Assembly (NCBI GenBank): GCA_034190085.1
Contig: JAXHTS010000063.1
Location: forward strand, 1-53,847
DNA length: 53,847 bases
Origin: Spirochaetota bacterium
Lineage (GTDB): Bacteria > Spirochaetota > UBA4802 > JAFGDQ01
Reading direction: 5' to 3'
The notes beneath the pieces are model-generated. The model was given only the letters and a program-made list of their open reading frames with translations, was not told the origin of the DNA and made no database searches. Position numbers and translations under genes: made by a program. Of this stretch, positions 9,388-53,847 are shown piece after piece. The first letter of the stretch is position 1. Each line of letters starts with the position of its first letter.

Positions 9388-9393
9388 AATAAA

Positions 9394-13475: not shown

Positions 13476-13539
13476 AGATGATCTTGTTTATAATTCAACA
13501 ACTTATAATCGCTCAATAATACTGACTGAAATATCTCTT

Positions 13540-13544: not shown

Positions 13545-13549
13545 AAGGG

Positions 13550-14788: not shown

Positions 14789-14802
14789 TATAATTATCAT
14801 TA

Positions 14803-17220: not shown

Positions 17221-17266
17221 ATATACAGTTGCAGGGTTATGGTAAAAAACATAAGTATTGTTTACG

Positions 17267-17527
17267 CTACCTCAAAAAGGCAATAGTCGCTCCCCAGTTC
17301 CCTGGTTCATCATGAAATGAAATCACATTATCATTTGACTGAAGAATTCTTATGACAACGCCCTTAATTGCAGATTTTCCCTTCCCATGTGCTATTCTGA
17401 TTCTTTTAATATCCTTTGCTAAAGCCATTTGTATAAACTCTAGGAGTATCCCCTTAACATCTTGGGGATGGAAGGGATGAAGATCAAGCTCATCATCAAG
17501 CTCTATTCTAATAACCTCATCTTCCAT
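17267..17527 (-). CDS. Small stand-alone Smr-domain protein
   Basis: The 86-residue product is one Smr domain. It has DLHPFHPQDV near residues 15-24, the HGKGKSAIKG loop near 47-56, and the ending GNWGATIAFLR. Small Smr proteins are predicted nucleic-acid-binding or nicking proteins related to the MutS2 C-terminus. It sits between the glycogen synthase-phosphorylase gene (96 bases upstream) and mutS2 (46 bases downstream), all on the minus strand. No strong ribosome site is visible before the ATG. The domain assignment is firm; the cellular role is unknown. Confidence 0.85.
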   Translation of the reverse strand: MEDEVIRIELDDELDLHPFHPQDVKGILLEFIQMALAKDIKRIRIAHGKGKSAIKGVVIRILQSNDNVISFHDEPGNWGATIAFLR

Positions 17528-17623
17528 ACTGTTAAATTCTTGTCATTATTAATCTTTATAATCGATAAAAAAATGCCGTCTTCTCTATGTGTTGATATGA
17601 TCCCTCCCATCTTTGATACTGCG

Positions 17624-27374: not shown

Positions 27375-27380
27375 TAGTAA

Positions 27381-27384
27381 CCTC
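27381..27384 (-). promoter_or_regulatory. Ribosome binding site deciding the thioesterase start
   Basis: TTGAGG ends 6 bases before the ATG at 27372-27374. The upstream TTG at 27384-27386 overlaps this site and is rejected as the start. Confidence 0.7.
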
Positions 27385-27387
27385 AAT

Positions 27388-28137: not shown

Positions 28138-28197
28138 ATTCACCTTCCTATCATTAAATTGATCAAATCCGAAATATATAATTTCCCGCTAGAACAT

Positions 28198-29133: not shown

Positions 29134-32100
29134 CTATTCCTCACTAGGCACTGGGGGATTTAGGAAATCTGCGGAAATACAATATTGAATGAGCCTATTT
29201 ATGAGTTCATTATCCAAAACTGGCCATTCAAATCCAACAGAATCAAGAAAATGTGACGCAATACCATGATTATAGATCACCTTGGTCTTTGGGGATAGGT
29301 TGTCAGAAAATTGTGAAATAAGCATTTCAATCCCATCCCCCAATTCTTCATCCTTAGAAAGATCCTTTATCGTTTCTATACACTCTTTCAACGGTAAAGA
29401 CCTGATATCGTATCCAACTCTTTTTAGTACTCCTGTGAATTGTTTTAGGGTAGTAAGGTTTGGATTATAGACATGAAGACAGCGCCCTGAGGTCTCTGGA
29501 AGCAGCATAAATTCAACCAAGGCCTTTCTGCATGAGTCAATTGGGGTCATCTCGATATGTCCATCAGATCCATCAGGTATCACACCTATATGAGCAATTG
29601 CCTTAATGAGACCATAGAATGCATTGGTATCAATAGAGCGTTGGAACTTTCCTGTAGAAGATGTTCCCACAAGGGTTCCCACCCTATAGATGGTGGCATT
29701 AATACCGCCTTCCATAGCTTCCCTCACAAGGGCTTCAGCCTCAAACTTACTCCTGGCATAAACGTTATCAAGAGCCTGTCCCCTATCGAAATCAGTCTCC
29801 TTAAACACCACCTGAGACATATTGGGATAATAGTTACCTGACACGCTTAAGGTGGATATATAGTGAAATCTCTTGATGCCTGATGAGTTTGCTAACTCAA
29901 GCAGCCTCTTCGTGCCCAGCACGTTTATGTTCCTAAAATGAGAATATTCACCAAAGTGCCTCACATCAGCCGCAGAGTGCACAATGGTATCCACTTCTTC
30001 GAGAATCCTCTCTGATATATCAACACTGAGGTTCAGGCCATCGATGTCCAGATTCCCAAGGACTGGGGTTATTCTGGACATACCCAAATCATTACAATCG
30101 AAGTAGAATTCTAGAGTAGCAATCAAACGTTCAGTAATATGCTCCTGATTTTCTCCACGAATTAGACAGTAGATATGCGCATCTGTCTTTTTTAGAAACT
30201 CATAGAGAAGGTGAGCGCCGAGATAGCCTGTAACTCCTGTGAGAAAAATATTTTTCGGATTTTCTCTCTTCCCTGAGATAGGAATATCAACAAATTCCTC
30301 CAGTGCCACTTCTTTGTCTGTAAAAGTATCACCCTGGGTCTCGCCCACACTTTCCATCCGCTTTAAGGCCACATGCGCTAAATCAACAATCCTCTGATAA
30401 TCAAAAAAATCCTGAACTGTAATAGGATAATTGAGCTTCAACTGCGCAAGCACTTTTAGGATCAATAGTGAGTTCCCTCCCAGATCAAAAAAATTATCAT
30501 ATATACCTATCCTCTCTACCCCCAAAACCCCCTGCCATACTTCAGCAAAGACCTGCTCCATATCATTTCTAGGCGGCACATATTCAGATGAAAAGAGAGC
30601 ATCCAGTTCTATCATTCTCAATAAAGAATTCCTGTCCAGCTTACCATTGGGTGTTAAGGGGAGTCTATCCAGAGGAATAAACAATGAAGGTATCATGTAA
30701 CTAGGCAGATACTCATTGAGATAAGAACGCCCCTCCTCCTCGCTCAAAGCATCGGATAACACATAGAACATCACAATAATAACATTACCATCATCGCTGG
30801 TCTTATCAATTACTACGCATTCAGTTACAGCTTCGTGACTCAGGAATACCTTCTCGATCTCTCCAGGTTCAATCCGGTAACCCCTTATCTCAAACTGATG
30901 GTCAACCCGTCCAATAAAATCAATATTACCGTCAGGCATCCATTTAGCATTATCTCCGGTCCTATACATAATCTCTTCAATATCGGAAAAGGGATTTTGG
31001 ACAAAGGCCTCATGCGTCTTATCTAGGTCATTTATATAACCATTGCCAACAGAGGAGCCGCTGATGAAGACCTCGCCAACAACACCCACAGGAACAGGAT
31101 TGAGATGTTTATCTAAAATATATACCTTAACATTGGATATAGGCCTTCCAATAGGGGGATTTCCCTTTGAATTGTCCCAATTGCTCACATTACCTGACGT
31201 TGCCACTACAGTAGTCTCAGTTGGGCCATAATTATTAATCACTTCAAATGCATGGCGTGATGGGACAAGGCTCAACCTATCGCCGCCGGTGAAGAGTGTC
31301 TTAAGCGAGAGATTCACAAGATTCAAACCGAGAACCAGCTCAGCCAGTTTTGTGGGAATAAAGGCTCGGGTTATTTTGTTCTTCCTGAGCCAGATAACAA
31401 GCTCATCGGGTAGCATATGGCTAAGATTCATCTCAAGAGGATATACGCTAGATCCGCTAAGTAAATATGGCCATATCTCCCACACCGATGCATCGAAAGC
31501 AACGCCTGCCAAAAGAGAGGCTCGGTCATGCTCATCTACGCTGAATGTGTTGATATGCCAGTATACTAGATTTGCAAAATTCCTATGTGTAATCTGAGAT
31601 CCCTTGGGTTGACCTGTTGAGCCTGAGGTATAGATCAGGTAAGCAGCATGCTCAGCCATTGAGGATACCTCAAGGGAATTCTTGGATTCCCCCCAGCAAT
31701 CATCAAGGCAGAGAGCCTCTGTATCAAATTCCAGCGTTCTGCTCAACAAATCCCTCTGCACGATCAATATCTTTGCACTTGAATCCTTGAGCATAAAGCG
31801 AACGCGATTTTGGGGATACTCTGGATCTATGGGAACAAACGCAGCCCCTACCTTCCAGACTCCTAGCTGCGATATTATCATCTCATCAGAACGCTTGGCA
31901 AAAATCCCCACATGGTCCTGTTCCAGAACACCCTTTCTCCTTAAAGAGTGGGCTAGTTGATTTGCTTTTGCATTGAGTTCACTATAGGTTAATGTTTTAC
32001 CATCAAAGACAACAGCAGCCATATCCGGAGTCCTCTTCATCTGTTCCTCAAATAGCTGATAGATGTGATTTGTCTTAGGATAATTAACATATGTGTCATT

Positions 32101-33469
32101 AAAATTATAGAGGACTCTATTCCTCTCCTCCTCCCCCAATATCTCATACTCACTTAGCCGCTTAGTGGGACAATTTACAACACCGGATAGGAGAGACTCA
32201 AAATATCCTGCAAATCTCTGAATTGTTTTTTCATCAAAAAGGTCGATGTTATATTCAAACTGTGCCTCAAGTCCCTTCTCATTTGCAGAGATGATCAATG
32301 TCAGGTCGAATTTAGAGGCAACCTGCTCTCCCTCAATCGGCTTTATGCAAATATCTTCATTTTTTTGGGATGTCAATGATGGGACAATCTCATCCTGATT
32401 AAATGCAAACATCACATCAAAGACCGGACTTCTGCTTATATCCCGCACAGGATTAAGGATATCTATCAAACGATCAAAGGGGTAATCCTGATTTGAATAC
32501 GCCTCAAGGCATGTCGCCCTCACCCTTCTCATGAGTTCAACAAAGCTAGGATTGCCGCTCAAATCAACGCGCAATGCCAGTGTATTTACAAAAAAACCTA
32601 TCAACTCCTGAATATCTGGATGATTCCTTCCAGCAATTGGTGTTCCGATTATTATGTCTTCCTGATTCGTCAACCTCAACATGAGAAGATTAAAGACAGC
32701 GAATAAAATCATAAAGGGTGTCATATCCTCAACCCTGGCAAGGCTTTCCATCCCATGCTTCAGATGACAATCTATCGTAAATCTATATGCCGCGCCGTAC
32801 TGAGTCTGAATGGAGGGTCTTTGTCTATCTGTCGGAATCTCCAACACTGGCAAATCGCCACCTAACTTCCCTAGCCAATAATCCTCCTGATTCTTCAATA
32901 AATCATTTATCAATAATGACTTCTGCCAATAAGCATAATCTTTATACTGAACATGTAGTTCCGATAGTGATGGATATTTGCCATCCCTAAGCGCGAGATA
33001 ACTTGAAACAAACTCCCCTGCCATAATACCCATAGACCACCCGTCGGATATGATGTGATGCATAATAAAGACAAGCATATACCTGTCTTTATCAGTCATA
33101 AATAGTGTCATCCTGAAAAGCGGGGCAACAGAAAGATCAAAGGATTTTGTAATCTCATCCATAGCTAGTTTAATAGAATCATCATCTCTACTCAAAATTA
33201 CATGAACCTCAGCCTTCATATCATCCAGTATAATCTGAACTGGCTCGCCGTCCAAATTTTTGAAGGCCGTGCGCAATGAGTCATGTCGATCAACAATAAT
33301 CTGTAATGCCTCCCTCATCAAACCTATATCCAGCTCACCCTCTATGGCTAAAACCATTGGGATATTGTATGTGGATATGCCAGGTGACATCTGATCCAAA
33401 AACCACAACCTCCTCTGCGCGTGGGAAAGTTCATAATACTCCCTCTTAGTTATAGGCTCAATAGGCAGA
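29134..33469 (-). other. NRPS module 6: C-A(Leu)-T-reductase
   Basis: Condensation about residues 5705-6160, adenylation about 6168-6670, carrier Ser6706 in GGNSL, reductase about 6765-7150. Specificity residues read D-A-W-F-F-G-N-V-V, one change from the Leu code DAWFLGNVVK. The reductase is of the extended SDR type and uses NAD(P)H to cleave the carrier thioester. The carrier-reductase block closely resembles the end of the upstream synthetase (LLILK.LAQLKLNYPITVQ against LLILKAIAKLKLSYPITIQ). Confidence 0.82.
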
Positions 33470-36400
33470 TATAATGATCCATCATGGACAGATATAACCC
33501 TGGATAGGCCATAAATTGTTGGCTCGTCAAAAAGCGATCTCACCGGCAAATCTATGGCAAAGCTCTCCTTTATCTTGCTCATTACCTGGATCACCTTCAA
33601 TGAATGCCCACCTAAATCAAAAAAATTATCATGTATGCCGATCCCCTTAACACCCAATACCTCTGACCAAATCCCTGCTATCTTCTCCTCCATATCACTA
33701 CGAGGTGGGATATATTCTCCATCAGCTTTGATATCAGGTTCTGGTAAAACACTTCTATCAATCTTACCATTGAGTGTTAATGGCATTTCATCTATCTGTA
33801 CAAAATATGATGGTATCATATAATCAGGCAGGCTCTTGGATAAAAATTTCCTTATTTCAGAGGATCGAATTTCTCTATCTGCAACAAAATATGAACAAAG
33901 AAAAACTTCATCATTATTATCTATCTTAGCTATAACTATATTTTCAGATATATCTATATGTCTCTGTATATGATTCTCTATTTCCCCTAACTCAATCCTA
34001 AATCCACGTATTTGAAATTGATGATCAATCCTGCCACAATATTCCATTTCACCATCGGCAATAATCCTCACAAGATCACCAGACCGATAAAGCCTCTCCC
34101 CAGGCTTGAATGGATCTTCGACAAATCTTTCCTCTGTAAGCTCCTTCCTGTTCAAATATCCTCGCGCAACGCCCTCCCCCCCTACATACAATTCTCCAAT
34201 TACGCCTTTTGGCAATAACCCCTGCTTCTCATCTAATATATATGTAAATAATGTTGGTATGGGTATTCCGATATTACTAACATTTAATTCGATGTCCCTC
34301 TCCTCCATCTCTTTATAGGTGACATGCACCGTTGTCTCCGTTATCCCATACATATTGATTATCTTTGTTTCAGGATAGATATCCTTCCATCCCAATAATT
34401 TAATAGGTTTTAGGGACTCACCCCCAAGAACAACATATCTAATAGATAATTCATGTTCTCGTTGGCCCAATTCTGCATTGATTAAATTATAAAAAGAAGA
34501 GGGGGTTTGATTCAGTACTGTTACCATCTCAGATCCCAATATTTGTAATAATTCCTTTGGATCCTTAGTGACTCCTTTTGGCACCAGTATCAACTTGCCG
34601 CCATAGAGCAGAGCCCCATAAATCTCCCATACTGAAAAATCGAAACAATAAGAATGAAACATCGTCCACACATCGTTACTATCAAAATCGAACGGATTCT
34701 TATCGTTAAACAAAAGCCTTACTACATTTTTATGTTCGATCATCACACCTTTAGGTTTTCCAGTAGTGCCAGATGTATAGATGATATAGGCTAAATCAGA
34801 GGAATTATTAATATTTTCAAGATTCGAATCATCTCCTACAAATACGTCAGCTTTATCCAAATATATCTTTTCTTCTACAAAACCTGCCCTGCTTGCCAGA
34901 CCTTCCGTTGTCAGTACTATCTCTGTTCCACTGTCCTGCAACATGAAGCTGATTCTCTCTTCCGGAAAATCTGGATCTATCGGCAGATATACCCCTCCGG
35001 CTTTAAGGATTGCCATCATTCCGATGATCATCTCAATGGATCGATCAAACATCATCCCCACAATACAATCAGGTTTCACACCCTTTTGTCGTAATAATCT
35101 CGCTAGGCTGTTTGCCCTTCTATTCAATTGGTCATAGGTGATCCGATTCTCTTTTATAACCACTGCTATATTATCTGGAAAATTCTCAGCTTGCTTCTCA
35201 AATAATTCATGAATGGTTGTATTCCTTGGATAATCTATCCCAGTCTTATTATATTCTACTAATAACCGATTTCTTTCTTCCTCGCCTATAATCTCATATT
35301 GGGATATTGGTTTCCCAGGATCTGACACTGCCTCTGATAATATATTACAAAAATAACCTGAAAACCTCCCTATGGTCTCAATATCAAAAAGATCTGTATT
35401 GTATTCAAATTGAGCTTCAAAACGATCATTATACTCAAATATAAATAGACTCAAATCAAACTTGGACGTCCTCCATACCTCATCTATCTCATCATACTCT
35501 TCAAGACTCAAACCATCCACATTCGTAAATAAATATTTATCAGCCTCATTCTGTACTACCAACATCACATTGAATATCGGACTCCTGCTCATGTCCCGAA
35601 CAGGATTAAGAAGATCTATCAAACGATCAAAGGGATAATCCTGATTCGAATACGCGCCTAAACAGACATCCCTTACGCGTAACAACAACTCCTCAAAACT
35701 CGGATCACCGCTCAAATCCACCCGCAGGGCAAGGGTATTTACAAAAAAGCCTATCAAATCCTGTATATCAGGATGATTCCTGCCGGCTATCGGAGAGCCG
35801 ACAATTATGTCATCCTGTTGACACAACCTCATTAAAAAAATATCAAATACCCCAAGCAAGGCCATGAATAACGTAAAATCACCATCCCTGGATATAGACC
35901 TCAGCCCTGAGGGAAGATCATCGCCTATAGTAAACCTATAGATTGCACCATTCTGACCCTGTATTGAGGGCCTAGGGCGGTCTAAAGGAAAATCCAACAC
36001 CGGCAAATCCCCACCCAACATATCCAACCAATACTCCTCTTGTGTCTCCAATTCACCGCTATCCAATAAGGAATTCTGCCAGGCTGAATAATCCCTGTAT
36101 TGTACAGGCAACTCAGGAAGTACAGGCTCCTCGCCCATACTCAAAAAACCATAGCAGAGCGCCAACTCCCTTATCAATAACTGCATGGACCAGCCGTCTG
36201 ATATGATGTGGTGCATCGTAAAGATAAAAAGATGACGGCCATCTCCCAATCTCAATAGGTTGACCCTGAAGAGCGGCAGCTTCGTAAGGTCAAAGGGTCT
36301 AAATGCCTCCTCCAATACAAAATGAGTCAAATCACCCTCACCCAATATATTCACTTCAAACCTAACATCATCAGAGATCACCTGCACCGGATGACCATTG

Positions 36401-45400: not shown

Positions 45401-48400
45401 TCCTCTCCCATATCCGTCACATAGGTTTCATTAAAAGGTCTGTCCATAGGCAGGGGAGTAATGGCTTCGAGATCTCCCAAGTGCGATTTCCAAAACTCAA
45501 GGGCAGCCTTGCTGTCCTGTTCCAAATACCATGAGATGTAATCCCTAAAGGATCGTCTCTGAGGTCTGGGTGGGGCATTGCCCCTAACAGAAGAGAGGTA
45601 GGTATCAAAAAAGTCCTTTAGGATAATAGGCAAAGACCATCCATCCAGCAGGATGTGATGGAAACTCCACACAAAACGATGCAGCTTCTCCCCTAGTATG
45701 AATAGGTTCAATCTTATGAGAGGGCCCTTTTCCATATCAAAGGGGTTGTCTCTATCGCTCTTCAGAAATGCATGAATCCTCTCCTCCTGGCCTTCTTTGT
45801 CAAGCCCAGCAATATCATGCACATCAAGGCTCACATGTAGATTTTTTAAGACAATCTGGACTGGATACTTAACACCAGACCATCTGAATACGGTTCTAAA
45901 TATTGGGTTAATGGAAATCAAATGGTTCCAGGCAGACCTAAAGGACTCTATATCCAAAGGCCCCTTAATTTTTAAGGAACGCTGCTCAAAGTATACTGGG
46001 TCTTCATGCTCCAATATAGAATGGAACAACATCCCATCCTGAGCGGGTGATAAGGGATAGATATCATCTATCTCATCCCTGTACTCATCCAAAAACTCTT
46101 GAGAGACATCTACAAGCGAAAAATCCGAGGGCGTATAACGCGAACACTCAACTAGCATGCAGTGTTGAACCACATTCTCGATCTCTCGAACTAGTCCTTG
46201 TGCTAGAGCGTGTAAGGTATCATCCCTGTATTTGTTTCTGCTGTAACCAACATCTATAAATAGCTTTAAATCCTGAACAATACAATTGATATCTATGAGG
46301 TGACTTCGGTTATTTATAGGATCACCACGTAGAAAATTCATCTCATATACGGGCTCTAAAAGTCCTTCGAATCCAATATTGTTTATCTGCCCAAGGTAAT
46401 TAAACAGGATCTCCGATTCGCCGCAAGGGATGAGATCAGCATCTCTCATATACTTGAGCACACCATAATTTAAACCCTTATGCGGCATAGCGCGCAGGTT
46501 TTCCTTAACATATCTGATATGATATCCAATATCCTCCTCAGGGCTAACCCCGAGTGTGACAGGGCAGATGGTTGTGAACCACCCAACGGTTCGTGATACA
46601 TCAATGCCATCTATTATCTCCTCCCGGCCATGCCCCTCAAGATCGAATATCACCTCATCAAGGGAAGACCAACCCTGCACCGCTCGCATCAGGGAGGTGA
46701 TCAGGAGTTCATTCACCTCAGTATGGTATGCCCTGTTCGCATCTCGCAGCAGATTATTTGCACACCCCCCGCTGATCACTACACGCACAACATCTGATGA
46801 CGCAACATCATTAGCGCCATAATCATGATCTATCACAAGCCGGTGTACAGAATCTGACGTCCTTCCCCTCCAGTAGGAGAGTTCATTCATGAGATCGGAC
46901 CTTGAAGCATATTCTGAAATGCATTGCGCCCATTCCCTGAAGGATGTTGTCTTATCCGGAAGCTCGATCTCCTTTCCGCTTAACAGAGATTCATATGCAC
47001 TGACTATATCCTCCAGCAGTATCCTCCATGAAACGCCGTCAACAACAAGATGGTGACACACTAATGCCAAGTAATCAACGCCATCGATTCGGAATAGACC
47101 GGCCCGAAAGAGAGGCCCATCCGCTATGTTAAGGGATGTTAAGAGGCTGTTAATTCCATCCTTTAGTGCAACGCGGTTATCAATATCCCTTACAACTAGA
47201 GAAACCTTCTCACCAAGAGGCTGATTCACCTGCTTGCCATCATAAAAACGCATCCTCAGTGCATCGTGATGCTCTATTAAGAGCTGCAAGCTCCTCCTCA
47301 ATGCATCCTCGTCAATGCTCGCGCCACACTTAAATATTAAGAATTGATTGAAGTGATTCTCGTTTGCCAATCCCAGTTCAAAAAACCACTTCTGTATCGG
47401 TGTTAGAGATGCCTCACCGATTACAGGCCCTTGCTCAGTCCTTACGCCATCGCTTATCACCGCTACAGCGGCAAGCTCGACTATGTTTTGGCGTTCAAAT
47501 ATGTCCTTTGGACGAATTACATAACCCCTCTTCTTCAGTCTACCAACAACCTGAAGGCTAGTGATGGAATCGCCTCCCATATCAAAAAAATTATCATATA
47601 TTCCGATCCTCTCTAGGCCAAATATCTCTGTCCATATTTCGACCAGGACACACTCCACTTCACTTCGAGGCGCAATATATTCACTTTTCACTACATCTCC
47701 AGCCCTCCTCATATCGAGCAACGCATCCCTGTCTACCTTGCCATTGGGTGTCAAGGGTAATTCATTCAGAGATACAAAACGCAACGGAATCATATATTCA
47801 GGCAACCTCTCCCTCAAAAAGGCCTTTATCTCGCTTGAAGATATCTCATCATCACTCACATAATATCCGACAAGGTGTCTGCTGCCTGAGGCCTCCTCCA
47901 TGTCCAGCACAACACAATCCTGAATGCCATCATACTTGCATAATGCCGCCTCCACCTCGCCAAGCTCTATGCGATAACCCCTGATCTTAACCTGATGGTC
48001 AACCCTACCAAGGAACTCGATGTTACCGTCCGAGAGCCACCTGCCTATGTCGCCAGTGCGATACATCCTCTCCCCATCAATAAATGGATTTGACACAAAG
48101 GCTTGGGCAGTGGGATCAGCCTTGTTCAAGTACCCCCTCGCCACACCCGGGCTGGAAATATATATCTCACCAGGAACGCCTATTGGCATCAGGTTTAAAT
48201 TCTTATCCAGTATATATATCCTAGTGTTAGCTATAGGCTTCCCTATGGGGACATTAGAGCATTCGGGATTCAGCCTGGAAAACCTATATACTATACATCC
48301 GACAACAGTCTCCGCAGGCCCGTACTCATTATAGATGATCAAATCCGCGTATTTATTCAACATTGACCTGGAGACATTTGCTGATAGAGCCTCGCCTCCA

Positions 48401-50586
48401 ATGATAAACCTATTCAATTTCTCAGATTTCTCAAGACCTTCATCTGTAAGCCGATCGACAATATCCAGATGAGCAGGGGTAAGCTTAGCAATATCGCATC
48501 TTTCGCTTATGAGCATTTGCTCGATAAGCGTATTTGGATCAAGACCCTGTGGTTGGATCTCAATGCATCCCCCTGCAACTAAGGGCGCAAAGATGCTGGT
48601 TACAGTAAGGTCAAAGGAGATGGACGTATATAAGGGAAAACCTTCATGTGCTTTAATATCATAGTAGGTGAGAGCCCAGGAGATGTAATTTACCAATCCC
48701 CTATGTTCAACCTCAATACCCTTGGGACTACCAGTTGATCCGGATGTATAAATTACATAGACTAGATCCACATTAGTATTTATCACCTCCGGCCTAAAAC
48801 TTGGCATCCTGCTGATATCCCTCCAGTCCCTATCCAAACAGATTATCTCGCCTTGATAGGGTGGCAATTCCTTCAACATTGATGAATGGGTTAAGATCAT
48901 CCCGGCATCACAATCATCAATCATGTATTCAAGCCTTGCCTTGGGATATTCCGGGTCCAATGGCACATAAGCGCCACCAGCTTTTATTATTCCAAGCAAC
49001 CCAACAACCAGATCTGTAGAGCGATCCAAAAATACGCCCACACACATATCAGGCCGAATCCCTCTTGTTCTGAGATAATGCGCCAACCTATTAACCCTCT
49101 CATCCATATCTACATAGGTTAAGCATTCATCACCATCCACAATGGCTATCCCATCAGAATTCTCATCCACCCGCTCCTCAATAAGTTCGTGAATGCAACT
49201 GTGATCAGGGTAAAGGGTATCTGTGATATTGAATTCCTGAAGCATCCTTTTCTCTCCAGTTCCCATGATCTCAATGCAATTTGCGTTACATAAAGGATTC
49301 TGAATCATGTGAACAAGTATATTGCGCAAATGCTCCAGCATACATTCTATGGTTTTTTCCTTAAATCGATCCCCTGCATAGGAGAGAGAGATCTCCATCT
49401 GATTTCCAGGCATAACGACCAGGCACAAATCAAAATTTGTCTCCTCCAACATCTTCATGTCAGATAAAATCAGATCCTCATCAATAGAGAGGGAATTGGG
49501 ATCAAGGGGATAGTTCTCGAATACAACAATGCTATTAAAGAGGTCCTCCCCAGCAGGAACCTGACTGCATGCCTTGATTTCAGGGAGGAATGAATACTCA
49601 AATCCCTGCATCTCTGAAAATCCCTCTTGAATATTTTCGAGCATCTCAGCAACTGTGGAGGTGAGACCAACCCTCATAGGAAGTGTATTGATAAATAGCC
49701 CTATCATCTCCTCTGAACCGGTGAGCGAGGCTGGTCTGCCGGAAACCGTAATGCCGAAAACAACATCATCACTATTACTGTAGCGACCAAGCAGGATTCC
49801 CCAGGCGGCCTGAATCAATGTACTAGAGGTAATCCTCTGATTACGGGCGAATGACTCGAGCGAATCTGTGATATCTTCAGATAGCCTTATCTCCCTCTTC
49901 TCAATCCTACGCTCGCACTTTAGTGACTTATAATCCCACAGTAATTCTGTTGGTGTGTCAAATCCATGGAGATATTCACTCCAAAATTGTTTAGCCCTCT
50001 CCATATCCTGCTTGGCAAGCCAAGATATATAATTCTTGTAGGGTGGTCGTAAAAGTACTGGCAGGGGCTGATCATTTCTTAAAGAGGTGTATGCAGCAAA
50101 GAGATCTGTAATAATATGAGAGAGGCACCATCCATCCAAGAGGATATGATGATAGCTCCATATAAAATAATTCCTATTCGACTCCAGTTCAATTACCTGC
50201 AAACGCATTAGCGGACCCTTTGCCATATCAAAGGGGTCTTGCCTATCTAAACGTAAAATCTCTTCTATTCTCTCTTTCTGCCCCTTATTATCCAGATCAT
50301 TAAGATGATGCACCTTGATGCTTATGGGTCGTTTCTTCAATACGAGTTGAACTGGCTGGCCTGCATCCTTCCAATTGAAGACGGTTCTAAATACCGGATA
50401 CTGATCTATGAGATAATTCCATGCGTCTTCAAGGTGTTTCAGGTATAGAGTCCCTTCTATTATGCAACAGAACTGTTCAAAATAAACCGATTGCTGCGGC
50501 TCATACAGGGTATGAAAGAGCATCCCCTGTTGCATAGGGGACAGGGGGTAAATGTCAGCTATATTCTTCTTTGACAAATAGTGCAT
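29134..50586 (-). CDS. Six-module nonribosomal peptide synthetase with terminal reductase
   Basis: The 7150-residue protein reads C-A-T-E / C-A-T / C-A-T / C-A-T / C-A-T / C-A-T-R. Carrier serines are Ser1007, 2513, 3559, 4613, 5662 and 6706. The first carrier has GGDS, as usual before an epimerase; the others have GGHS or GGNS. Adenylation codes read by eye predict Asn, Gln, probably Gly, Asn, Thr and Leu. The C-terminal domain (about 6765-7150) is a thioester reductase with GVTGYLG at 6784-6790, Tyr6943 and Lys6947 (YxxxK), which releases an aldehyde or alcohol. Condensation domains 1 and 2 start YPLSPxQxGMLFH, the form usual for D-donor condensation domains; domains 3-6 start LSHAQ(K/R)RLWFLDQ, the form usual for L-donor domains. 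GGGAAG precedes the ATG. It follows another NRPS gene by 79 bases. The product is cytoplasmic; no exporter is visible. Confidence 0.97.
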   Translation of the reverse strand: MHYLSKKNIADIYPLSPMQQGMLFHTLYEPQQSVYFEQFCCIIEGTLYLKHLEDAWNYLIDQYPVFRTVFNWKDAGQPVQLVLKKRPISIKVHHLNDLDNKGQKERIEEILRLDRQDPFDMAKGPLMRLQVIELESNRNYFIWSYHHILLDGWCLSHIITDLFAAYTSLRNDQPLPVLLRPPYKNYISWLAKQDMERAKQFWSEYLHGFDTPTELLWDYKSLKCERRIEKREIRLSEDITDSLESFARNQRITSSTLIQAAWGILLGRYSNSDDVVFGITVSGRPASLTGSEEMIGLFINTLPMRVGLTSTVAEMLENIQEGFSEMQGFEYSFLPEIKACSQVPAGEDLFNSIVVFENYPLDPNSLSIDEDLILSDMKMLEETNFDLCLVVMPGNQMEISLSYAGDRFKEKTIECMLEHLRNILVHMIQNPLCNANCIEIMGTGEKRMLQEFNITDTLYPDHSCIHELIEERVDENSDGIAIVDGDECLTYVDMDERVNRLAHYLRTRGIRPDMCVGVFLDRSTDLVVGLLGIIKAGGAYVPLDPEYPKARLEYMIDDCDAGMILTHSSMLKELPPYQGEIICLDRDWRDISRMPSFRPEVINTNVDLVYVIYTSGSTGSPKGIEVEHRGLVNYISWALTYYDIKAHEGFPLYTSISFDLTVTSIFAPLVAGGCIEIQPQGLDPNTLIEQMLISERCDIAKLTPAHLDIVDRLTDEGLEKSEKLNRFIIGGEALSANVSRSMLNKYADLIIYNEYGPAETVVGCIVYRFSRLNPECSNVPIGKPIANTRIYILDKNLNLMPIGVPGEIYISSPGVARGYLNKADPTAQAFVSNPFIDGERMYRTGDIGRWLSDGNIEFLGRVDHQVKIRGYRIELGEVEAALCKYDGIQDCVVLDMEEASGSRHLVGYYVSDDEISSSEIKAFLRERLPEYMIPLRFVSLNELPLTPNGKVDRDALLDMRRAGDVVKSEYIAPRSEVECVLVEIWTEIFGLERIGIYDNFFDMGGDSITSLQVVGRLKKRGYVIRPKDIFERQNIVELAAVAVISDGVRTEQGPVIGEASLTPIQKWFFELGLANENHFNQFLIFKCGASIDEDALRRSLQLLIEHHDALRMRFYDGKQVNQPLGEKVSLVVRDIDNRVALKDGINSLLTSLNIADGPLFRAGLFRIDGVDYLALVCHHLVVDGVSWRILLEDIVSAYESLLSGKEIELPDKTTSFREWAQCISEYASRSDLMNELSYWRGRTSDSVHRLVIDHDYGANDVASSDVVRVVISGGCANNLLRDANRAYHTEVNELLITSLMRAVQGWSSLDEVIFDLEGHGREEIIDGIDVSRTVGWFTTICPVTLGVSPEEDIGYHIRYVKENLRAMPHKGLNYGVLKYMRDADLIPCGESEILFNYLGQINNIGFEGLLEPVYEMNFLRGDPINNRSHLIDINCIVQDLKLFIDVGYSRNKYRDDTLHALAQGLVREIENVVQHCMLVECSRYTPSDFSLVDVSQEFLDEYRDEIDDIYPLSPAQDGMLFHSILEHEDPVYFEQRSLKIKGPLDIESFRSAWNHLISINPIFRTVFRWSGVKYPVQIVLKNLHVSLDVHDIAGLDKEGQEERIHAFLKSDRDNPFDMEKGPLIRLNLFILGEKLHRFVWSFHHILLDGWSLPIILKDFFDTYLSSVRGNAPPRPQRRSFRDYISWYLEQDSKAALEFWKSHLGDLEAITPLPMDRPFNETYVTDMGEERLLLTEEFSAHLRDLSKKERITLSTLIQAVWAILLSRYSGQEDVVFGSVVSGRPAELSGSEDMVGLFINTLPVRITLAEDMTLTELFQSLQDLLLRIRDYEYSLLPDVKDVSAIPRSQNLFDSIVVFENYPLESLSEIENHSLEISDIYGFEMTNFPLTLVIVPGARMSLNMQYYRSLFDQGTISRMMGHMHQILCAVIENPSRRISELDILTPIERQNVLVSFNTTYVNYPKDKCLHQLFEEQADLTPERPAVVFYDGFYTYGELNARSNQLARHLREQGVDSGAIISMMISEPLDAIVAILGILKSGCAYLYMDVDYPKIRIDHMIDESDAPVVLTMEAHLDKLSGYQGGIVCLDRDWDYISYYDVSNLQCDILPEDAAYALYTSGSTGKPKGALIPHRGVVNLVYALQKGIYSNYSDPLHVAQLASFSFDASVQQIFASLILGHTLYPIPNTIKRDVSLLIDYILDNKIEIIDGTPSLWELFIDGGISDRSGLELKHIIVGGEALPKKLIERFYDGSYGKGTKWTNVYGVTESSVDSTVCLVELDAIGGSLYVPIGKPIANTWIYIFDEHMRLVPVGVPGEMYIGGDGLALGYLNNPEETRQRFIDDSINKGKRLYRTGDLGKWLPDGNILFLGRIDQQVKIRGFRIEPGEIEAVLSAYPDVSECVIVDKLDNSGNRFLVAYYVSRRELSASSLRDFLGKSLPDYMIPLRFVGLDSFPMNRSGKLNRNALPDIDDMRPVLETEYVAPRNNIERTLTEIWQDLLGIEGVGVRDNFFDLGGHSLKAMRVVSRIKKELNVEIPLRAIFEDPSIEGISRVISMWNHRVLGNIEPLPKMTSYPLSHAQKRLWFLDQLIPNSIAYNIPTAFIVNGDLDIVAMNQALQFVVERHDILRTTFTDEDGRPVQVVADEMPIEVNIIDSGNVKELAASEASRPFDLSSLPLFRVSLFSIGDERHLVLFTMHHIISDGWSMQILIKELLLSYSSIKRCENPRLPELPVQYRDYAAWQNSMLLMSELKEQEEYWLGKLGGDLPVLDLPTDRARPSMLTQNGSTYRFIIGSDLAIGIRNLTKQRDLTLFMVLLAVFDILLLRLSNQDDIIVGSPVAARNHSDVHDLIGFFVNTLALRVDLGGNPKFEELMQRVRETCLDAYSNQDYPFDRFIDILNPPRDASRSPIFSVMFILQNEMDILTSLSVEGLTIEEIIDEQTSAKFDLTLLIFEFNDRFEAQFEYNTDLFDEATIERFSHYFITLLFDVTKYPSNRLSEYKILNDVERNKLLIEFNDTQALYPEALCYHQIFEDQIANMPDNVALIFGDTQLTYSELNERANRLAWLLRSKGVRPDSIVGIMVNRSTEMIVGLLAILKAGGAYLPIDPEYPEERVRYMLEDSDVGIMLTQGGLISKVLGCGFSSEIIDIFDEGSYGANSTNLSNIACHGDLAYVIYTSGSTGKPKGVMIEHRNVVNFIAGMASTIDFSSNKTILALTTVSFDIFVLETLLALAKGLRIVIANEMEQSDPELLRNLINDNRVSMLQVTPSRLKLLKGYGNMAECMSGLSELIVGGEPFPDNLLTELKDAFDGRIYNAYGPTETTVWSTLKDLTETEEINIGRPISNTRVYIIDDYNRSQPIGVAGELCIGGEGLARGYLNKPELTSERFIENPFVPDERIYRTGDLACWLPNGEIEFFGRSDYQVKIRGYRIELGEIETRLCEHSSISDAVVVDRHDAGGDQCLVAYCVSEVELSTNDLREFLKMTLPNYMIPSRFIVLDTIPLTPNGKVDRDRLPEIDGIGTVVDREPIPPRDEREEHISSIWQEVLGVSDIGIYDNFFDLGGHSLLATQVISRIRKGFGVDIPLRIIFDEPNIAGLAIAVSDYRSVKYSSIEPLARQEYYEPSHAQKRLWFLDQLTPDSSAYNISSVFIIKGDLDIEILNRAMHLVVDRHETLRTTFTSLNGHPVQVISDDVRFEVNILGEGDLTHFVLEEAFRPFDLTKLPLFRVNLLRLGDGRHLFIFTMHHIISDGWSMQLLIRELALCYGFLSMGEEPVLPELPVQYRDYSAWQNSLLDSGELETQEEYWLDMLGGDLPVLDFPLDRPRPSIQGQNGAIYRFTIGDDLPSGLRSISRDGDFTLFMALLGVFDIFLMRLCQQDDIIVGSPIAGRNHPDIQDLIGFFVNTLALRVDLSGDPSFEELLLRVRDVCLGAYSNQDYPFDRLIDLLNPVRDMSRSPIFNVMLVVQNEADKYLFTNVDGLSLEEYDEIDEVWRTSKFDLSLFIFEYNDRFEAQFEYNTDLFDIETIERFSGYFRNILSEAVSDPGKPISEYEIIGEEERNRLLIEFNDTYTEFPEDLCIHELIEKTSTRYPDRIALRAGDEHLTYRDLEMNANRLAHYLRLRDIRNDSRVGIFMDRSIGMIVGILGILKAGGAYVPLDIEYPEQRLEYMLSDSDVKLILTHSSVFEGLPRYNGEILCLDRGWDEISRMPSSSLEMINTSRDLVYVIYTSGSTGQPKGIEIEHRGLVNYIIWALHYYDIEDHGSFPLYTSMSFDLTVTSIFAPLVAGECIEIYPGDTDPVSLIEEVFRSGMSDIAKLTPAHLEIADRLTDDDLRKSGNLNRLILGGEALSAKVSRSILKKYPGLIIYNEYGPAETVVGCIAYKFDSLDSSCINIPIGKPIANTKIYILDKDMKLVPIGVPGVIHIFSPGVARGYLNKHDITSKSFLSSPFSEGERLYSTGDLGRWLHDGNVEYLGRVDDQIKIRGYRIEPREVASVISLYDGIHDSVVMDREDDRGERYLIGYYVSVDDISSGELKSFVKESLPDYMIPARFVRLDSIPLTPNGKVDRDRLPEIDGIGTAVDREPIPPRDEREEHISSIWQEVLGVSDIGIYDNFFDLGGHSLLATQVISRIRKGFGVDIPLRIIFDEPNIAGLAIAVSDYRSVKYSSIEPLARQEYYEPSHAQKRLWFLDQLTPDSSAYNISSVFIIKGDLDIEILNRAMHLVVDRHETLRTTFTSLNGHPVQVISDDVRFEVNILGEGDLTHFVLEEAFRPFDLTKLPLFRVNLLRLGDGRHLFIFTMHHIISDGWSMQLLIRELALCYGFLSMGEEPVLPELPVQYRDYSAWQNSLLDSGELETQEEYWLDMLGGDLPVLDFPLDRPRPSIQGQNGAIYRFTIGDDLPSGLRSISRDGDFTLFMALLGVFDIFLMRLCQQDDIIVGSPIAGRNHPDIQDLIGFFVNTLALRVDLSGDPSFEELLLRVRDVCLGAYSNQDYPFDRLIDLLNPVRDMSRSPIFNVMLVVQNEADKYLFTNVDGLSLEEYDEIDEVWRTSKFDLSLFIFEYNDRFEAQFEYNTDLFDIETIGRFSGYFCNILSEAVSDPGKPISQYEIIGEEERNRLLVEYNKTGIDYPRNTTIHELFEKQAENFPDNIAVVIKENRITYDQLNRRANSLARLLRQKGVKPDCIVGMMFDRSIEMIIGMMAILKAGGVYLPIDPDFPEERISFMLQDSGTEIVLTTEGLASRAGFVEEKIYLDKADVFVGDDSNLENINNSSDLAYIIYTSGTTGKPKGVMIEHKNVVRLLFNDKNPFDFDSNDVWTMFHSYCFDFSVWEIYGALLYGGKLILVPKGVTKDPKELLQILGSEMVTVLNQTPSSFYNLINAELGQREHELSIRYVVLGGESLKPIKLLGWKDIYPETKIINMYGITETTVHVTYKEMEERDIELNVSNIGIPIPTLFTYILDEKQGLLPKGVIGELYVGGEGVARGYLNRKELTEERFVEDPFKPGERLYRSGDLVRIIADGEMEYCGRIDHQFQIRGFRIELGEIENHIQRHIDISENIVIAKIDNNDEVFLCSYFVADREIRSSEIRKFLSKSLPDYMIPSYFVQIDEMPLTLNGKIDRSVLPEPDIKADGEYIPPRSDMEEKIAGIWSEVLGVKGIGIHDNFFDLGGHSLKVIQVMSKIKESFAIDLPVRSLFDEPTIYGLSRVISVHDGSLYLPIEPITKREYYELSHAQRRLWFLDQMSPGISTYNIPMVLAIEGELDIGLMREALQIIVDRHDSLRTAFKNLDGEPVQIILDDMKAEVHVILSRDDDSIKLAMDEITKSFDLSVAPLFRMTLFMTDKDRYMLVFIMHHIISDGWSMGIMAGEFVSSYLALRDGKYPSLSELHVQYKDYAYWQKSLLINDLLKNQEDYWLGKLGGDLPVLEIPTDRQRPSIQTQYGAAYRFTIDCHLKHGMESLARVEDMTPFMILFAVFNLLMLRLTNQEDIIIGTPIAGRNHPDIQELIGFFVNTLALRVDLSGNPSFVELMRRVRATCLEAYSNQDYPFDRLIDILNPVRDISRSPVFDVMFAFNQDEIVPSLTSQKNEDICIKPIEGEQVASKFDLTLIISANEKGLEAQFEYNIDLFDEKTIQRFAGYFESLLSGVVNCPTKRLSEYEILGEEERNRVLYNFNDTYVNYPKTNHIYQLFEEQMKRTPDMAAVVFDGKTLTYSELNAKANQLAHSLRRKGVLEQDHVGIFAKRSDEMIISQLGVWKVGAAFVPIDPEYPQNRVRFMLKDSSAKILIVQRDLLSRTLEFDTEALCLDDCWGESKNSLEVSSMAEHAAYLIYTSGSTGQPKGSQITHRNFANLVYWHINTFSVDEHDRASLLAGVAFDASVWEIWPYLLSGSSVYPLEMNLSHMLPDELVIWLRKNKITRAFIPTKLAELVLGLNLVNLSLKTLFTGGDRLSLVPSRHAFEVINNYGPTETTVVATSGNVSNWDNSKGNPPIGRPISNVKVYILDKHLNPVPVGVVGEVFISGSSVGNGYINDLDKTHEAFVQNPFSDIEEIMYRTGDNAKWMPDGNIDFIGRVDHQFEIRGYRIEPGEIEKVFLSHEAVTECVVIDKTSDDGNVIIVMFYVLSDALSEEEGRSYLNEYLPSYMIPSLFIPLDRLPLTPNGKLDRNSLLRMIELDALFSSEYVPPRNDMEQVFAEVWQGVLGVERIGIYDNFFDLGGNSLLILKVLAQLKLNYPITVQDFFDYQRIVDLAHVALKRMESVGETQGDTFTDKEVALEEFVDIPISGKRENPKNIFLTGVTGYLGAHLLYEFLKKTDAHIYCLIRGENQEHITERLIATLEFYFDCNDLGMSRITPVLGNLDIDGLNLSVDISERILEEVDTIVHSAADVRHFGEYSHFRNINVLGTKRLLELANSSGIKRFHYISTLSVSGNYYPNMSQVVFKETDFDRGQALDNVYARSKFEAEALVREAMEGGINATIYRVGTLVGTSSTGKFQRSIDTNAFYGLIKAIAHIGVIPDGSDGHIEMTPIDSCRKALVEFMLLPETSGRCLHVYNPNLTTLKQFTGVLKRVGYDIRSLPLKECIETIKDLSKDEELGDGIEMLISQFSDNLSPKTKVIYNHGIASHFLDSVGFEWPVLDNELINRLIQYCISADFLNPPVPSEE
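33470..36627 (-). other. NRPS module 5: C-A(Thr)-T
   Basis: Condensation about residues 4654-5110, almost identical to that of module 4. Adenylation about 5115-5625, carrier Ser5662. Specificity residues read D-F-W-N-V-G-M-V-H, one conservative change from the Thr code DFWNIGMVHK. The A3 motif is TSGTTGKPKG, differing from TSGSTG in the other modules. The adenylation segment is visibly more AT-rich than the other modules. Confidence 0.82.
35267..36944 (-). repeat. 1.68-kb direct repeat, copy B (T4-C5 block)
   Basis: This copy spans the end of adenylation domain 4, carrier 4, condensation domain 5 and the linker to adenylation domain 5. It matches 38429-40106 at a constant offset of 3162 bases. 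By eye the stretch 35370-36762 (1393 bases) has no mismatch with its partner; about a dozen and a half differences cluster at the two ends. The offset is a multiple of three, so recombination between copies keeps the frame. Confidence 0.93.
36628..39789 (-). other. NRPS module 4: C-A(Asn)-T, flanked by repeats
   Basis: Condensation about residues 3600-4050, adenylation about 4062-4575, carrier Ser4613. The specificity residues D-L-T-K-I-G-E-V-G are identical to module 1, and the two adenylation domains are clearly paralogous. Odd points: the A7 motif reads YSTGDLG instead of YRTGDLG, and the A8 region reads EPREVAS where its neighbours have ELGEIE. The domain lies exactly between two near-identical 1.68-kb blocks. 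Confidence 0.8.
38429..40106 (-). repeat. 1.68-kb direct repeat, copy A (T3-C4 block)
   Basis: Partner of 35267-36944, in the same orientation. It covers the end of adenylation domain 3, carrier 3, condensation domain 4 and the linker to adenylation domain 4. Between the two copies lies only adenylation domain 4 (Asn), about 36945-38428. Confidence 0.93.
39790..42914 (-). other. NRPS module 3: C-A(Gly?)-T
   Basis: Condensation about residues 2558-3010 (HHIISDGW), adenylation about 3012-3522, carrier Ser3559. Specificity residues read D-I-L-Q-I-G-A-V-W, closest to Gly-type codes such as DILQLGLIWK that I recall, with three differences. Gly is the best guess but is less secure than the other modules. 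The carrier is the start of the 1.68-kb block repeated in module 4. Confidence 0.6.
42915..46084 (-). other. NRPS module 2: C-A(Gln)-T
   Basis: Condensation about residues 1500-1950, of the YPLSPAQDGMLFH form expected after an epimerase, with HHILLDGW. Adenylation about 1952-2475, carrier Ser2513. Specificity residues read D-A-Q-D-I-G-V-V-D, one conservative change from the known Gln code DAQDLGVVDK. The A5-like motif is YGVTESS rather than YGPTET, as is common in this subgroup. Confidence 0.8.
46085..50586 (-). other. NRPS module 1: C-A(Asn)-T-E
   Basis: Condensation about residues 1-450 (HHILLDGW), adenylation about 455-965, carrier with Ser1007 in MGGDS, epimerase about 1059-1490 (HHLVVDGVSW, ILFNYLGQ). 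Specificity residues aligned to GrsA are D-L-T-K-I-G-E-V-G, one conservative change from the published Asn code DLTKLGEVGK. With the epimerase this should give D-Asn. The condensation domain resembles the D-donor type, although the preceding synthetase ends in a reductase. Confidence 0.85.
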
Positions 50587-50665
50587 AATCTTCCCAAAAA
50601 TTCCATAACATTCAAATGACGGAATTCACAGATCACCATGAAATCACATCTCATCATCTATATTC

Positions 50666-53600
50666 TTATATTTCTGATGATTTTACAAATCCTGTTGTCA
50701 CACAATATTTAATCAGCCTTTTTAGTAATTCTCTGTCCAGAGAGGGCCATCTAAATCCTACTGAATCTAAGAAATGGCTTGAAATACGATTATCGTATTT
50801 CACCCTAGTCTTAGGTGTAAAGGAAGCTGTAATATAGGGGATAAGCTTTTGAACAACCTCCTCCAACTCCTTGTTCTCTAAGGCATTTTGTATAGCAGTA
50901 GCATAATCTTCTACACTTAGGGACTGAATATTATATCCAAAGGATGATAATTGTTCTCTTAGATTGTTTATGGTAATCAGGTTGGGATTGTACAGGTGAA
51001 AGGTATGACCTGATGTCTCTGGAAGCAACATAAGATTAACTATTGCATCTCTGCAAGAATCAACGGGGGTCATATCCAATTGTCCGTCGCTATCACCTGG
51101 CACAACACCCATCTGAATTATTGCCTTAATTAGTCCATAGAATGCATTGGTATCTATGGAGCGTTGGAACTTCCCGGTTGTGGAGTCTCCCACCAATGCA
51201 CCAATCCTATAAATAGTAGCGTTAAATCCATTGCCCGTCGCATCCCTCACTAAAGACTCAGCCTCGAATTTGCTCCTTCCATAAACATTATTGAGCACCT
51301 GTCCCCTATTATAGTCCAATTCACTGAATACGATTTGAGACATATTGGGGATATAATCCCCTGAAATGCTTAATGTTGATATATGATGGAATCTCTTACA
51401 ATTTCCTATCCTTGCTAGATCAAGCAATCTCTTTGTGCCCATTACATTTATTTTTTCAAAATGAGAATACTCGCCATAGTGCCTGACATCAGCAGCAGAA
51501 TGCACGATTGTGTCCACTTTCTCAAGCAGCATCCACATATCATCAACATCTAAACATATCCCATCAATCTCCAGATCGCCTAGGATTGGTGTTATTCTTG
51601 AACAATCCACCTCAATCAGATTAAAATAAAAATCCATGGTAGATAAAACACGTTGTATAATATGTTCTTTACTCTCTCCACGGATGAGACAATAGACATG
51701 CGCATTGGTTTTATTCAAGAGTTCATAGAGGAGATGGGCACCAAGATAACCGGTCACTCCGGTAAGGAGTACTGCCTTAAGATTTTCCTTTTGCCCTGAG
51801 ATTGGTATGATCCTGTTTTTTTCAATTTCTATAGTAGTATCATCCTCAGTCATAGAAATATCAGACTCCTTTCCCTCAGTTTCCATTCGTTCACGGGCTT
51901 TCTGTGCAAGATCCGCTATTGTCTGATAATCGAAAAAATCCTGGATCGTAATGGGATAGGACAACTTTAATTTCGCAATCGCCTTCAGGATTAACAATGA
52001 GTGCCCACCCAAATCAAAAAAATTATCATATATGCCTACCTTATCAATACCCAAGACCTCCTGCCAAGCTAAAGCCAATACCCGCTCTAAATCATCTCTG
52101 GGCGCAGCATACACCCTCTCCATCACAGGCCGTAAACCATTTATATCTGGGAGAGCCTTACGGTCAATCTTGCCATTAGGCGTCAACGGCAGACTCTCCA
52201 TAAGCATAAAGCGGGATGGAATCATATAATCAGGCAAATTCTCGCCTATATGTGAACGAAGTGAGCTCGTGGAAAACTCAACATCCGAAACATAAAAGGT
52301 TGCCAAGTACTTATTCCCTTCCGGATCATCCCTGGCTACCACAACCACATCCACTATGCCATCATAAGAGAGTAAGCACGCCTCGATCTCTCCCAACTCT
52401 ACGCGGTTACCCCTGATCTTAACCTGGTTATCAATCCTACCCAAATATTCGATACTTCCATCATAGAGCCACCTGCCAAGATCGCCAGTTCTATATAGCC
52501 TGCCATATCTCGATTGAGCGCTGGGTATAAAGACCTCATCCGTCTTCTCAGGCTTATTTATATACCCCTCTGCAAGACCTAGACCAGCAAGATATATCTC
52601 ACCTGCTATGCCAATAGGCACTGGATTCATATTTCTATCCAGTATATATACCTCCATATTTGCAATGGGTCTGCCAATAGGAATAGCGCTGGATTTATCT
52701 CTGGGACTACATTCATAATAGGTCACGTCAATGGATGCCTCGGTAGGACCATAGAGGTTATGCAACTCGCAATCAATGTATTTAAAGAATACATCCCTAT
52801 GCTCTGCTAAAAGCGCCTCACCTGAACAGAATACCCTCCTCAATGATTTCAAACATGATCTATTCTCATCATCCATTATCCTTAAGAATCCACTCAACAT
52901 AGATGGAACAAAATGGATGGTGGTTATCTCCCTATCGCTTATAACATTAATGATATTAAGCGGATCCTTCTCCATTCCAGGATTCAAGAAGTGAACCCTT
53001 GCTCCAAACATCAATGCCCAAAAAAACTCCCATCCCGATACATCAAATGTATATGGAGTCTTCTGCAGTATACAATCATCCCCTAAAAGGGGATACTCCT
53101 CCTGCATCCAAAATAGACGGTTACATAATCCCTGGTGTATGCATGCAACTCCCTTCGGTATTCCAGTGGAGCCTGATGTGTAGAGGACATAGACAACGTC
53201 TTCAGGGCCGCTTAGATAGGATAAATTAGAAGCTTCCTCTTTTGCAATATCTTCCCATTGACTATCCAAGCAAAGGGACATCACATTTCTATCGGATAAC
53301 CTGTGGACATGCCTCTCCTGTGTAAGCACTATTGGGGATAGGGTATCCTCAAGTATATAATCTACCCTCGAATCAGGATATTCTGTGCCAATTGGCACAT
53401 AGGCCCCGCCTGATTTCATAATACCCAAAAGGGCTATCATCATTTCAAGAGAACGATCAAGCATCATGCCTACCATTGTCTCTCTGCCAACGCCCAGTTT
53501 CCTCAGATAACGAGCCAGTTGATTCGCCTTCCCATTTAATTCATTATACGTAAGAGACTTATCTTCAAATGTCACTGCTATTGAATCAGGAGCTCTGGTT

Positions 53601-53847
53601 GCCTGATCTTCAATCATTTGAAATACGCATCTTTCCAAAGGATATGGCTTAGCAGTATTATTGAAAGAAACCAGTATCCTCTCCCGCTCATCAGAAGTCA
53701 GCATATCAACATCGCTAACACTTAAACCAGGATCAGAAACTAACACCCGCAATATCTGCTCAAGGTGAAAAAGTACCCGGCTTATCATAGCTGAATCAAA
53801 AAGCGACCTGTAATAGTGAAGGCTTATGCTCATGCGAGAGCCAGGGG
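50666..53847 (-). CDS. Partial NRPS ending C-A(Ser)-T-reductase (5' end outside the window)
   Basis: The frame is open to the window edge: the codons before the first visible Met read Pro-Gly-Ser-Arg, matching the PGARMSLNMQYY segment late in condensation domain 2 of the downstream synthetase, so the gene starts beyond 53847. Visible parts are the end of a condensation domain of the D-donor-like subgroup, an adenylation domain (about 52120-53690; TSGSTGIPKG, YRTGDLG), a carrier with its Ser codon at 51998-52000 (GGHSL), and a reductase (50666 to about 51790; GVTGYLGAH, NVYGRSKFE). Specificity residues read D-V-W-H-F-S-L-I-D, one change from the Ser code DVWHLSLIDK. The visible end should release a peptide with a reduced C-terminal Ser. 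The stop lies 79 bases before the next NRPS gene. Confidence 0.95.
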   Translation of the reverse strand, partial: PGSRMSISLHYYRSLFDSAMISRVLFHLEQILRVLVSDPGLSVSDVDMLTSDERERILVSFNNTAKPYPLERCVFQMIEDQATRAPDSIAVTFEDKSLTYNELNGKANQLARYLRKLGVGRETMVGMMLDRSLEMMIALLGIMKSGGAYVPIGTEYPDSRVDYILEDTLSPIVLTQERHVHRLSDRNVMSLCLDSQWEDIAKEEASNLSYLSGPEDVVYVLYTSGSTGIPKGVACIHQGLCNRLFWMQEEYPLLGDDCILQKTPYTFDVSGWEFFWALMFGARVHFLNPGMEKDPLNIINVISDREITTIHFVPSMLSGFLRIMDDENRSCLKSLRRVFCSGEALLAEHRDVFFKYIDCELHNLYGPTEASIDVTYYECSPRDKSSAIPIGRPIANMEVYILDRNMNPVPIGIAGEIYLAGLGLAEGYINKPEKTDEVFIPSAQSRYGRLYRTGDLGRWLYDGSIEYLGRIDNQVKIRGNRVELGEIEACLLSYDGIVDVVVVARDDPEGNKYLATFYVSDVEFSTSSLRSHIGENLPDYMIPSRFMLMESLPLTPNGKIDRKALPDINGLRPVMERVYAAPRDDLERVLALAWQEVLGIDKVGIYDNFFDLGGHSLLILKAIAKLKLSYPITIQDFFDYQTIADLAQKARERMETEGKESDISMTEDDTTIEIEKNRIIPISGQKENLKAVLLTGVTGYLGAHLLYELLNKTNAHVYCLIRGESKEHIIQRVLSTMDFYFNLIEVDCSRITPILGDLEIDGICLDVDDMWMLLEKVDTIVHSAADVRHYGEYSHFEKINVMGTKRLLDLARIGNCKRFHHISTLSISGDYIPNMSQIVFSELDYNRGQVLNNVYGRSKFEAESLVRDATGNGFNATIYRIGALVGDSTTGKFQRSIDTNAFYGLIKAIIQMGVVPGDSDGQLDMTPVDSCRDAIVNLMLLPETSGHTFHLYNPNLITINNLREQLSSFGYNIQSLSVEDYATAIQNALENKELEEVVQKLIPYITASFTPKTRVKYDNRISSHFLDSVGFRWPSLDRELLKRLIKYCVTTGFVKSSEI

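Follow-up and report, generated by a model that had tools for sequence, protein, structure and literature searches.

A possible branched lipopeptide synthetase line with two reductase-terminated arms in a Spirochaetota genome

Introduction

In the cyanobacterial vatiamide pathway, a hybrid of polyketide synthase (PKS) and nonribosomal peptide synthetase (NRPS), one upstream line reportedly feeds several downstream NRPS arms. Vatiamide also appears as a FAAL product in PMC11837247, and in the lxa cluster for laxaphycins and scytocyclamides of Scytonema hofmannii PCC 7110 a shared loading stage feeds two NRPS arms, an arrangement called exceptional (PMC7524897). Reductive release is known from linear gramicidin synthetase, whose terminal reductase (R) domain gives an aldehyde that a separate aldo/keto reductase takes to the alcohol (PMC8949500), and crosstalk through COM docking elements, which accompany epimerization (E) domains (PMC12402864), has been described for TycA with SrfA-C, TycB and GrsB (PMC9113145). 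Here we describe two successive NRPS proteins, A and B, that each end in an R domain and lie on a 53,847-nucleotide contig of a Spirochaetota bacterium (JAXHTS010000063.1, assembly GCA_034190085.1), which corresponds to contig C63 in an 86-contig draft genome and is analyzed in full as the window.

Together with the proteins p1, p2, p3 and D of a second contig (C72), A and B probably belong to a single lipopeptide NRPS cluster whose line branches, such that the chain would pass from p1 to either p2-p3-D...B or A, each with its own reductase release. We see roughly even chances that this is a natural, COM-coded and purely nonribosomal fork at which a FAAL-D-Val loader chooses between two paralogous reductase-terminated arms, with an aldehyde or alcohol pair that may act together in the manner of the laxaphycins.

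Both synthetases end in a reductase with intact motifs

Domain annotation with Pfam and with profiles derived from the sequence of the window revealed that A comprises six modules, C-A-T-E-(C-A-T)x5-R (C, condensation; A, adenylation; T, carrier), that it starts without an A-T or FAAL loading module, and that it is followed, in this order, by a short-chain dehydrogenase (SDR) and a type II thioesterase (TE). Because position 53847 is the end of the contig, B is truly truncated. A preliminary description of this DNA had reported two NRPS open reading frames on a common strand, 79 bp apart and each with a carrier-reductase end, and both the coordinates and the domain profiles agree with it. In A and B alike the T domain precedes a C-terminal R domain of the extended SDR type (NAD_binding_4, matched in B at 5.6e-53 with Pfam), so that each of the two proposed arms has a release domain of its own, the R of B or the R of A.

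Alignment with solved NRPS reductases (6vtj, MxaA 4u7w and AusA 4f6l) revealed that TGVTGYLG, the Thr of ISTLS and the Tyr and Lys of YGRSK in the B reductase coincide with their counterparts, and the A reductase has its NAD(P) motif and Thr-Tyr-Lys triad at matching positions too. An AlphaFold model of the B reductase, made from a two-row alignment, was discarded at a mean pLDDT of 38, and the active site was therefore assessed by this alignment. Both proteins keep GxxGxxG and the Ser/Thr-Tyr-Lys triad, unlike the R* (Dieckmann) domains, which are without the Tyr of the triad (PMC8949500); as this Tyr is present in A and B, both R domains are expected to be reductive. An inactive first reductase, one of three options raised in the preliminary description, is thus disfavored by the NAD(P) motif and triad of B, in which the alignment shows no loss of active-site residues.

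The same motifs bear on a single colinear line, in which a silent or slow B reductase would let the chain pass from the B carrier to the first C domain of A (A_C1) and one long peptide would be freed by the A reductase. Gene order, the 79-bp spacing and the shared strand fit such a line, and no terminator was found in the spacer, the nearest terminator-like match (50521-50543) lying inside the coding start of A. B nevertheless has intact R motifs and ends in R behind an LGGHSL carrier with no E domain and no COM donor helix, A_C1 is of the type that receives from T-E proteins, and no example of a chain moving forward beyond an intact terminal R was found in the literature searched. We therefore hold one colinear line to be very unlikely, just as plain transfer from B to A had not been expected in the preliminary description.

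A probably upstream contig carries the likely loading protein

For the sequence beyond position 53847, called for earlier to complete B, C72 is an upstream candidate, but it does not join the window directly and the missing piece between the two was not found in the genome bin. Condensation-domain matches occur genome-wide only on C63, on C72 and as a small fragment on C76. The latter (C76 (L010) 8939-10059) consists of isolated C-domain fragments in two frames and is probably an NRPS remnant. In transcription order, C72 carries p1 (FAAL-T-C-A-T-E), p2 (C-A-T-E), p3 (C-A-T-E) and D, a C domain running off the contig, with the FAAL of p1 called from its AMP-ligase sequence and its position ahead of the first T. 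This is the one FAAL-T-C-A-T-E protein seen in the sequenced parts of the cluster, and A has no loading module. Apart from the left end of C72 and the right end of C63, which face each other, no open NRPS ends were found in the genome; all NRPS genes of both contigs share one direction, those of C72 pointing toward C63, and their G+C content is 41.5-43.6% on both contigs vs 32-35% in the flanks. From this arrangement we infer the gene order across the gap.

A direct join of the contigs through a 119-bp overlap was ruled out because the two sequences diverge on either side of the exact match. Overlaps of 120-121 bases occur between several other contig ends of the assembly, which puts the assembler k at about 121, and the exact core common to C72 and C63 is 77 bases, which with 44 private bases per contig also gives 121. 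Such a 77 + 44 form is expected if a third path exists from the C72-side tail through the core to the C63-side tail, and the 44-bp tail of C63 can be read in register as a second C domain (PGSRMSISLHYYRSLFD vs PGSQLEMTLQYATDLFD). The gap may thus contain two or more near-identical A-T-C modules that the assembler merged; 1.7-kb stretches of 98.6% identity inside A indicate that homogenized modules do occur in this cluster. The 119-bp stretch, which lies near the C-A boundary of two C domains, is probably a site of recombination and the cause of the assembly break.

If C72 and C63 were not neighbors, they would hold two separate clusters and A would be fed by something unseen. The differing flanks of the shared 119 bp and the lack of a direct join fit such a separation, yet no other open NRPS ends were found, the two contigs agree in direction and base composition, they hold the most similar domains, and their ends have the form expected of a collapsed internal repeat at k = 121, which together makes separate clusters extremely improbable.

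Roughly 6 kb beyond p1 and divergent from it, C72:20001-40000 (L035) contains at 3312-19781 a set resembling polyunsaturated fatty acid (PUFA) synthases along with a phosphopantetheinyl transferase. The set comprises a 543-aa protein with a FabD helical insert, a KS-AT-ACP-KR protein and a KS-FabA-repeat protein, and it might supply the acyl chain.

A probable shared loader for the chain supply to A

Phylogenetic trees placed A_C1 in the D-residue-type C clade (100/100), most other members of which directly follow an E domain. Within it, A_C1 is sister to the first C domain of p2 (p2_C1) and forms a clade at 100/98 with G035p2_C1, from protein 2 of a related line in a genome of the same order (G035); the second C domain of A (A_C2) is sister to p3_C1 (100/99). 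COM donors (a C-terminal TPSDF helix on T-E proteins) are present on p1, p2 and p3, and COM acceptors (an IY-L-SPMQ-GMLFH hand at the N-end) on p2, p3, D and A. Because A has no starter but has a D-residue-type C domain and a COM acceptor, it is unlikely to be a self-standing line, and it most likely draws on the FAAL-Val-E loading protein of the cluster, p1 on C72. The acceptor of A is 82% identical to that of G035 protein 2, 74% to that of p2 and 51% to those of p3 and D, and in sequence the acceptors and C1 domains of A and p2 match the type of G035's. One donor was found common to acceptors 75-88% identical (PMC9113145), which makes a shared donor for p2 and A plausible, though unproven.

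The line of this relative (G035:C11) consists of a p1 homologue, FAAL-T-C-A-T-E, and then one protein with a D-type C start, an R, an SDR and a type II TE. It resembles the present locus in the p1 homologue, in the D-type C start on protein 2 and in the terminal R-SDR-TE order, and differs in having a single arm (Gln-Asn-Ala?-Gly-R) and no second R. Since its order, from p1 homologue through protein 2 to R-SDR-TE, is matched by A-SDR-TE, A appears to correspond to G035 protein 2 and to receive its chain from p1, and p2-p3-D...B appears to form a second arm with the same loader at its start and a separate R at its end. If the fork is real, this comparison suggests that it originated by duplication of an arm behind a common loader.

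Several points weigh against a fork at p1. The COM donor helices are alike (68% between p1 and p2, 74% between p2 and G035p1), too much so for this comparison to settle the branch point, and p2 rather than p1 might supply A. The simple two-protein line was found in one relative only, and the missing C72-C63 stretch holds the full length of B, the gene order and possibly an extra loading module. The whole case for branching, moreover, is drawn from sequence.

Branching could accordingly lie later, with A fed by p2 (acyl-D-Val-D-Gln) or p3 (acyl-D-Val-D-Gln-D-Asn) and arm 1 continuing on to B, such that the two products would have a longer shared start. The likeness of the p2 donor to that of G035p1, the promiscuity of COM pairs (PMC9113145) and the position of A after B are in line with this, but the acceptor and C1 of A group with those of the p1-receivers (p2 and G035p2) and not with p3 or D, and we consider a later branch unlikely.

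Predicted products of the two arms

Ten-residue A-domain codes were read against a PheA segment and interpreted with established code tables, and the residue identities in both arms are predictions of this kind. The specificity code of the B A domain is DVWHFSLIDK, which we take to be Ser-like, and that of the last module of A is DAWFFGNVVK, presumably Leu-like. Modules 1-6 of A are predicted to specify Asn, Gln, Gly, Asn, Thr and Leu, and p1, p2 and p3 of C72 a Val-like residue, Gln and Asn, respectively.

With a fork at p1, this protein (FAAL-T-C-A[Val-like]-T-E) would make acyl-D-Val-S-carrier, and its COM donor would dock on either of two like acceptors, that of p2 or that of A. Arm 1 would run from p2 through p3 to D...B and release acyl-D-Val-D-Gln-D-Asn-(further residues)-seryl aldehyde via the B reductase, and arm 2, consisting of A, would release acyl-D-Val-D-Asn-Gln-Gly-Asn-Thr-leucyl aldehyde via the A reductase. 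The downstream SDR may reduce the released aldehyde to the alcohol and probably serves both arms, as does the type II TE, which would clear stalled carriers. That the p1 donor feeds A and that both arms work we infer from the domain types described above. Of the options in the preliminary description, two peptides, one ending in reduced Ser and one in reduced Leu, is the best supported, with the correction that A is unlikely to stand by itself.

The proposed arms as a reshuffled duplicate

Over 474 aa the T-R ends of A and B share 60% identity, and their R domains are 61% identical to each other and 49-51% to that of G035. A tree of the reductases grouped R_A and R_B as sisters with moderate support (89/92). 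The close paralogy of the carrier-reductase ends noted earlier therefore stands, but it is not confined to the ends, as the first (A_C1/p2_C1) and second (A_C2/p3_C1) C domains are also paired between the arms. In module 1 of A, the A and E domains resemble those of p3 (E pair 98/96) and C1 resembles that of p2, so the arms appear to be a duplicate that was later reshuffled and not a clean copy. The 1.7-kb repeat of A covers T-C parts of neighboring modules (in protein, C4/C5 99% and T3/T4 100%), pointing to recent module homogenization.

Paralogy with internal recombination is also what one would see if a single arm were in use and the other were a redundant or decaying duplicate. Against such decay, no examined catalytic motif of A or B is impaired, the reading frame of A stays open over all 7150 aa, and the oddest motif seen was NHIIIDG in the C domain of p3; we judge the use of one arm alone to be decidedly improbable.

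Occurrence in other genomes

A close R match was present in 7 of 393 sampled genomes of the phylum, and only this genome had two in one locus. Another member of the phylum, G079, has three R-ended NRPS proteins on separate contigs (C26, C34 and C54), one of which follows a T-E protein. A search of plasmid records for a second R gave 107 places in 101 records. Of the records with several places, two were read: Nostoc NIES-3756 has one R within the 44 kb covered, and R. leguminosarum GLR17 has two R-bearing proteins that are ~4.5 kb apart but on opposite strands and are not successive multimodular lines. No other locus with two successive R-ended NRPSs was seen in the genomes sampled.

Locus features and neighboring genes

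Table 1. Positions of NRPS and associated features in the window (contig C63).
Feature	Position	Strand	Description
NRPS A	29134..50586	-	7150 aa, complete; C-A(Asn)-T-E-C-A(Gln)-T-C-A(Gly)-T-C-A(Asn)-T-C-A(Thr)-T-C-A(Leu)-T-R (residues predicted)
NRPS B	50666..53847	-	Open reading frame 50666-53845, open, 1059 aa; (C end)-A(Ser)-T-R (residue predicted)
B/A spacer	50587..50665		79 bp
COM-type acceptor, N-terminus of A	50470..50586	-	MHYLSKKNIADIYPLSPMQQGMLFHTLYEP...
A_C1	49237..50562	-	Condensation domain, D-residue-accepting clade
E domain, A module 1	46147..47451	-	HHLVVDG; internal (cis) COM linker and A_C2 next
A_C2	44740..46071	-	Second D-residue-type C domain
Repeated T-C stretch in A	38429-40142 and 35267-36980	-	1.7 kb, 98.6% DNA identity
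Last carrier (T) domain of A	30373..30564	-	LGGNSL
Terminal reductase domain of A	29182..30258	-	TGVTGYLG, ISTLS, YARSK
Terminal reductase domain of B	50705..51781	-	TGVTGYLG, ISTLS, YGRSK
Carrier (T) domain of B	51902..52093	-	LGGHSL, vs GGDSI type seen before E domains
Stretch common to C63 and C72	53685..53803		119 bp, 99% identical to C72:3-121; C-terminal part of C domain
SDR	27388..28143	-	Directly downstream of A; homologue at same place in G035
Type II thioesterase	26625..27386	-	Homologue at same place in G035

Elsewhere in the window, one open reading frame (17624-21901) has a glycogen synthase match followed by a carbohydrate phosphorylase match, a fusion that adjoins a GH57 enzyme and a glycosyltransferase, and a 499-aa protein (9652-11151) has as its sole Pfam match the thiolase-like protein type 1 C-terminal domain.

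Comparison with known systems

If the branched line is real, gene order here misleads product prediction, as automated annotation would either connect B with A or leave A as an orphan. The locus would also offer a natural setting in which to measure the division of a chain between two acceptors by one COM donor, a question addressed to date mostly with engineered or cross-pathway pairs, and would extend the small set of known branched NRPS lines by a reductase-ended one. No NRPS cluster with two reductases was found in the literature searched, which is weak evidence of absence as most subscription journals lie outside it.

The TycA crosstalk likewise joins one donor to several acceptors of 75-88% identity, but it is engineered or cross-pathway, whereas we propose sharing as the natural design of one cluster. 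Linear gramicidin synthetase is similar in its terminal R and separate reductase, the role of the SDR here being a putative one, and differs in having one line with one R and a separate reductase of the aldo/keto type. The lxa cluster, like the line proposed here, has one FAAL-based loading stage, two NRPS arms in one cluster and two lipopeptides, but is cyanobacterial, with arms that end in thioesterases and make rings and a shared part that is a FAAL-PKS instead of a FAAL-NRPS-E protein; the passages covered do not describe docking-domain logic at the branch (PMC7524897). While branching itself is unproven, two R-ended arms behind a shared loader would differ from the known laxaphycin-type branching, and, given the laxaphycin precedent and the absence of a double-R cluster from the literature and genomes sampled, the novelty would lie in the variant and not in the kind.

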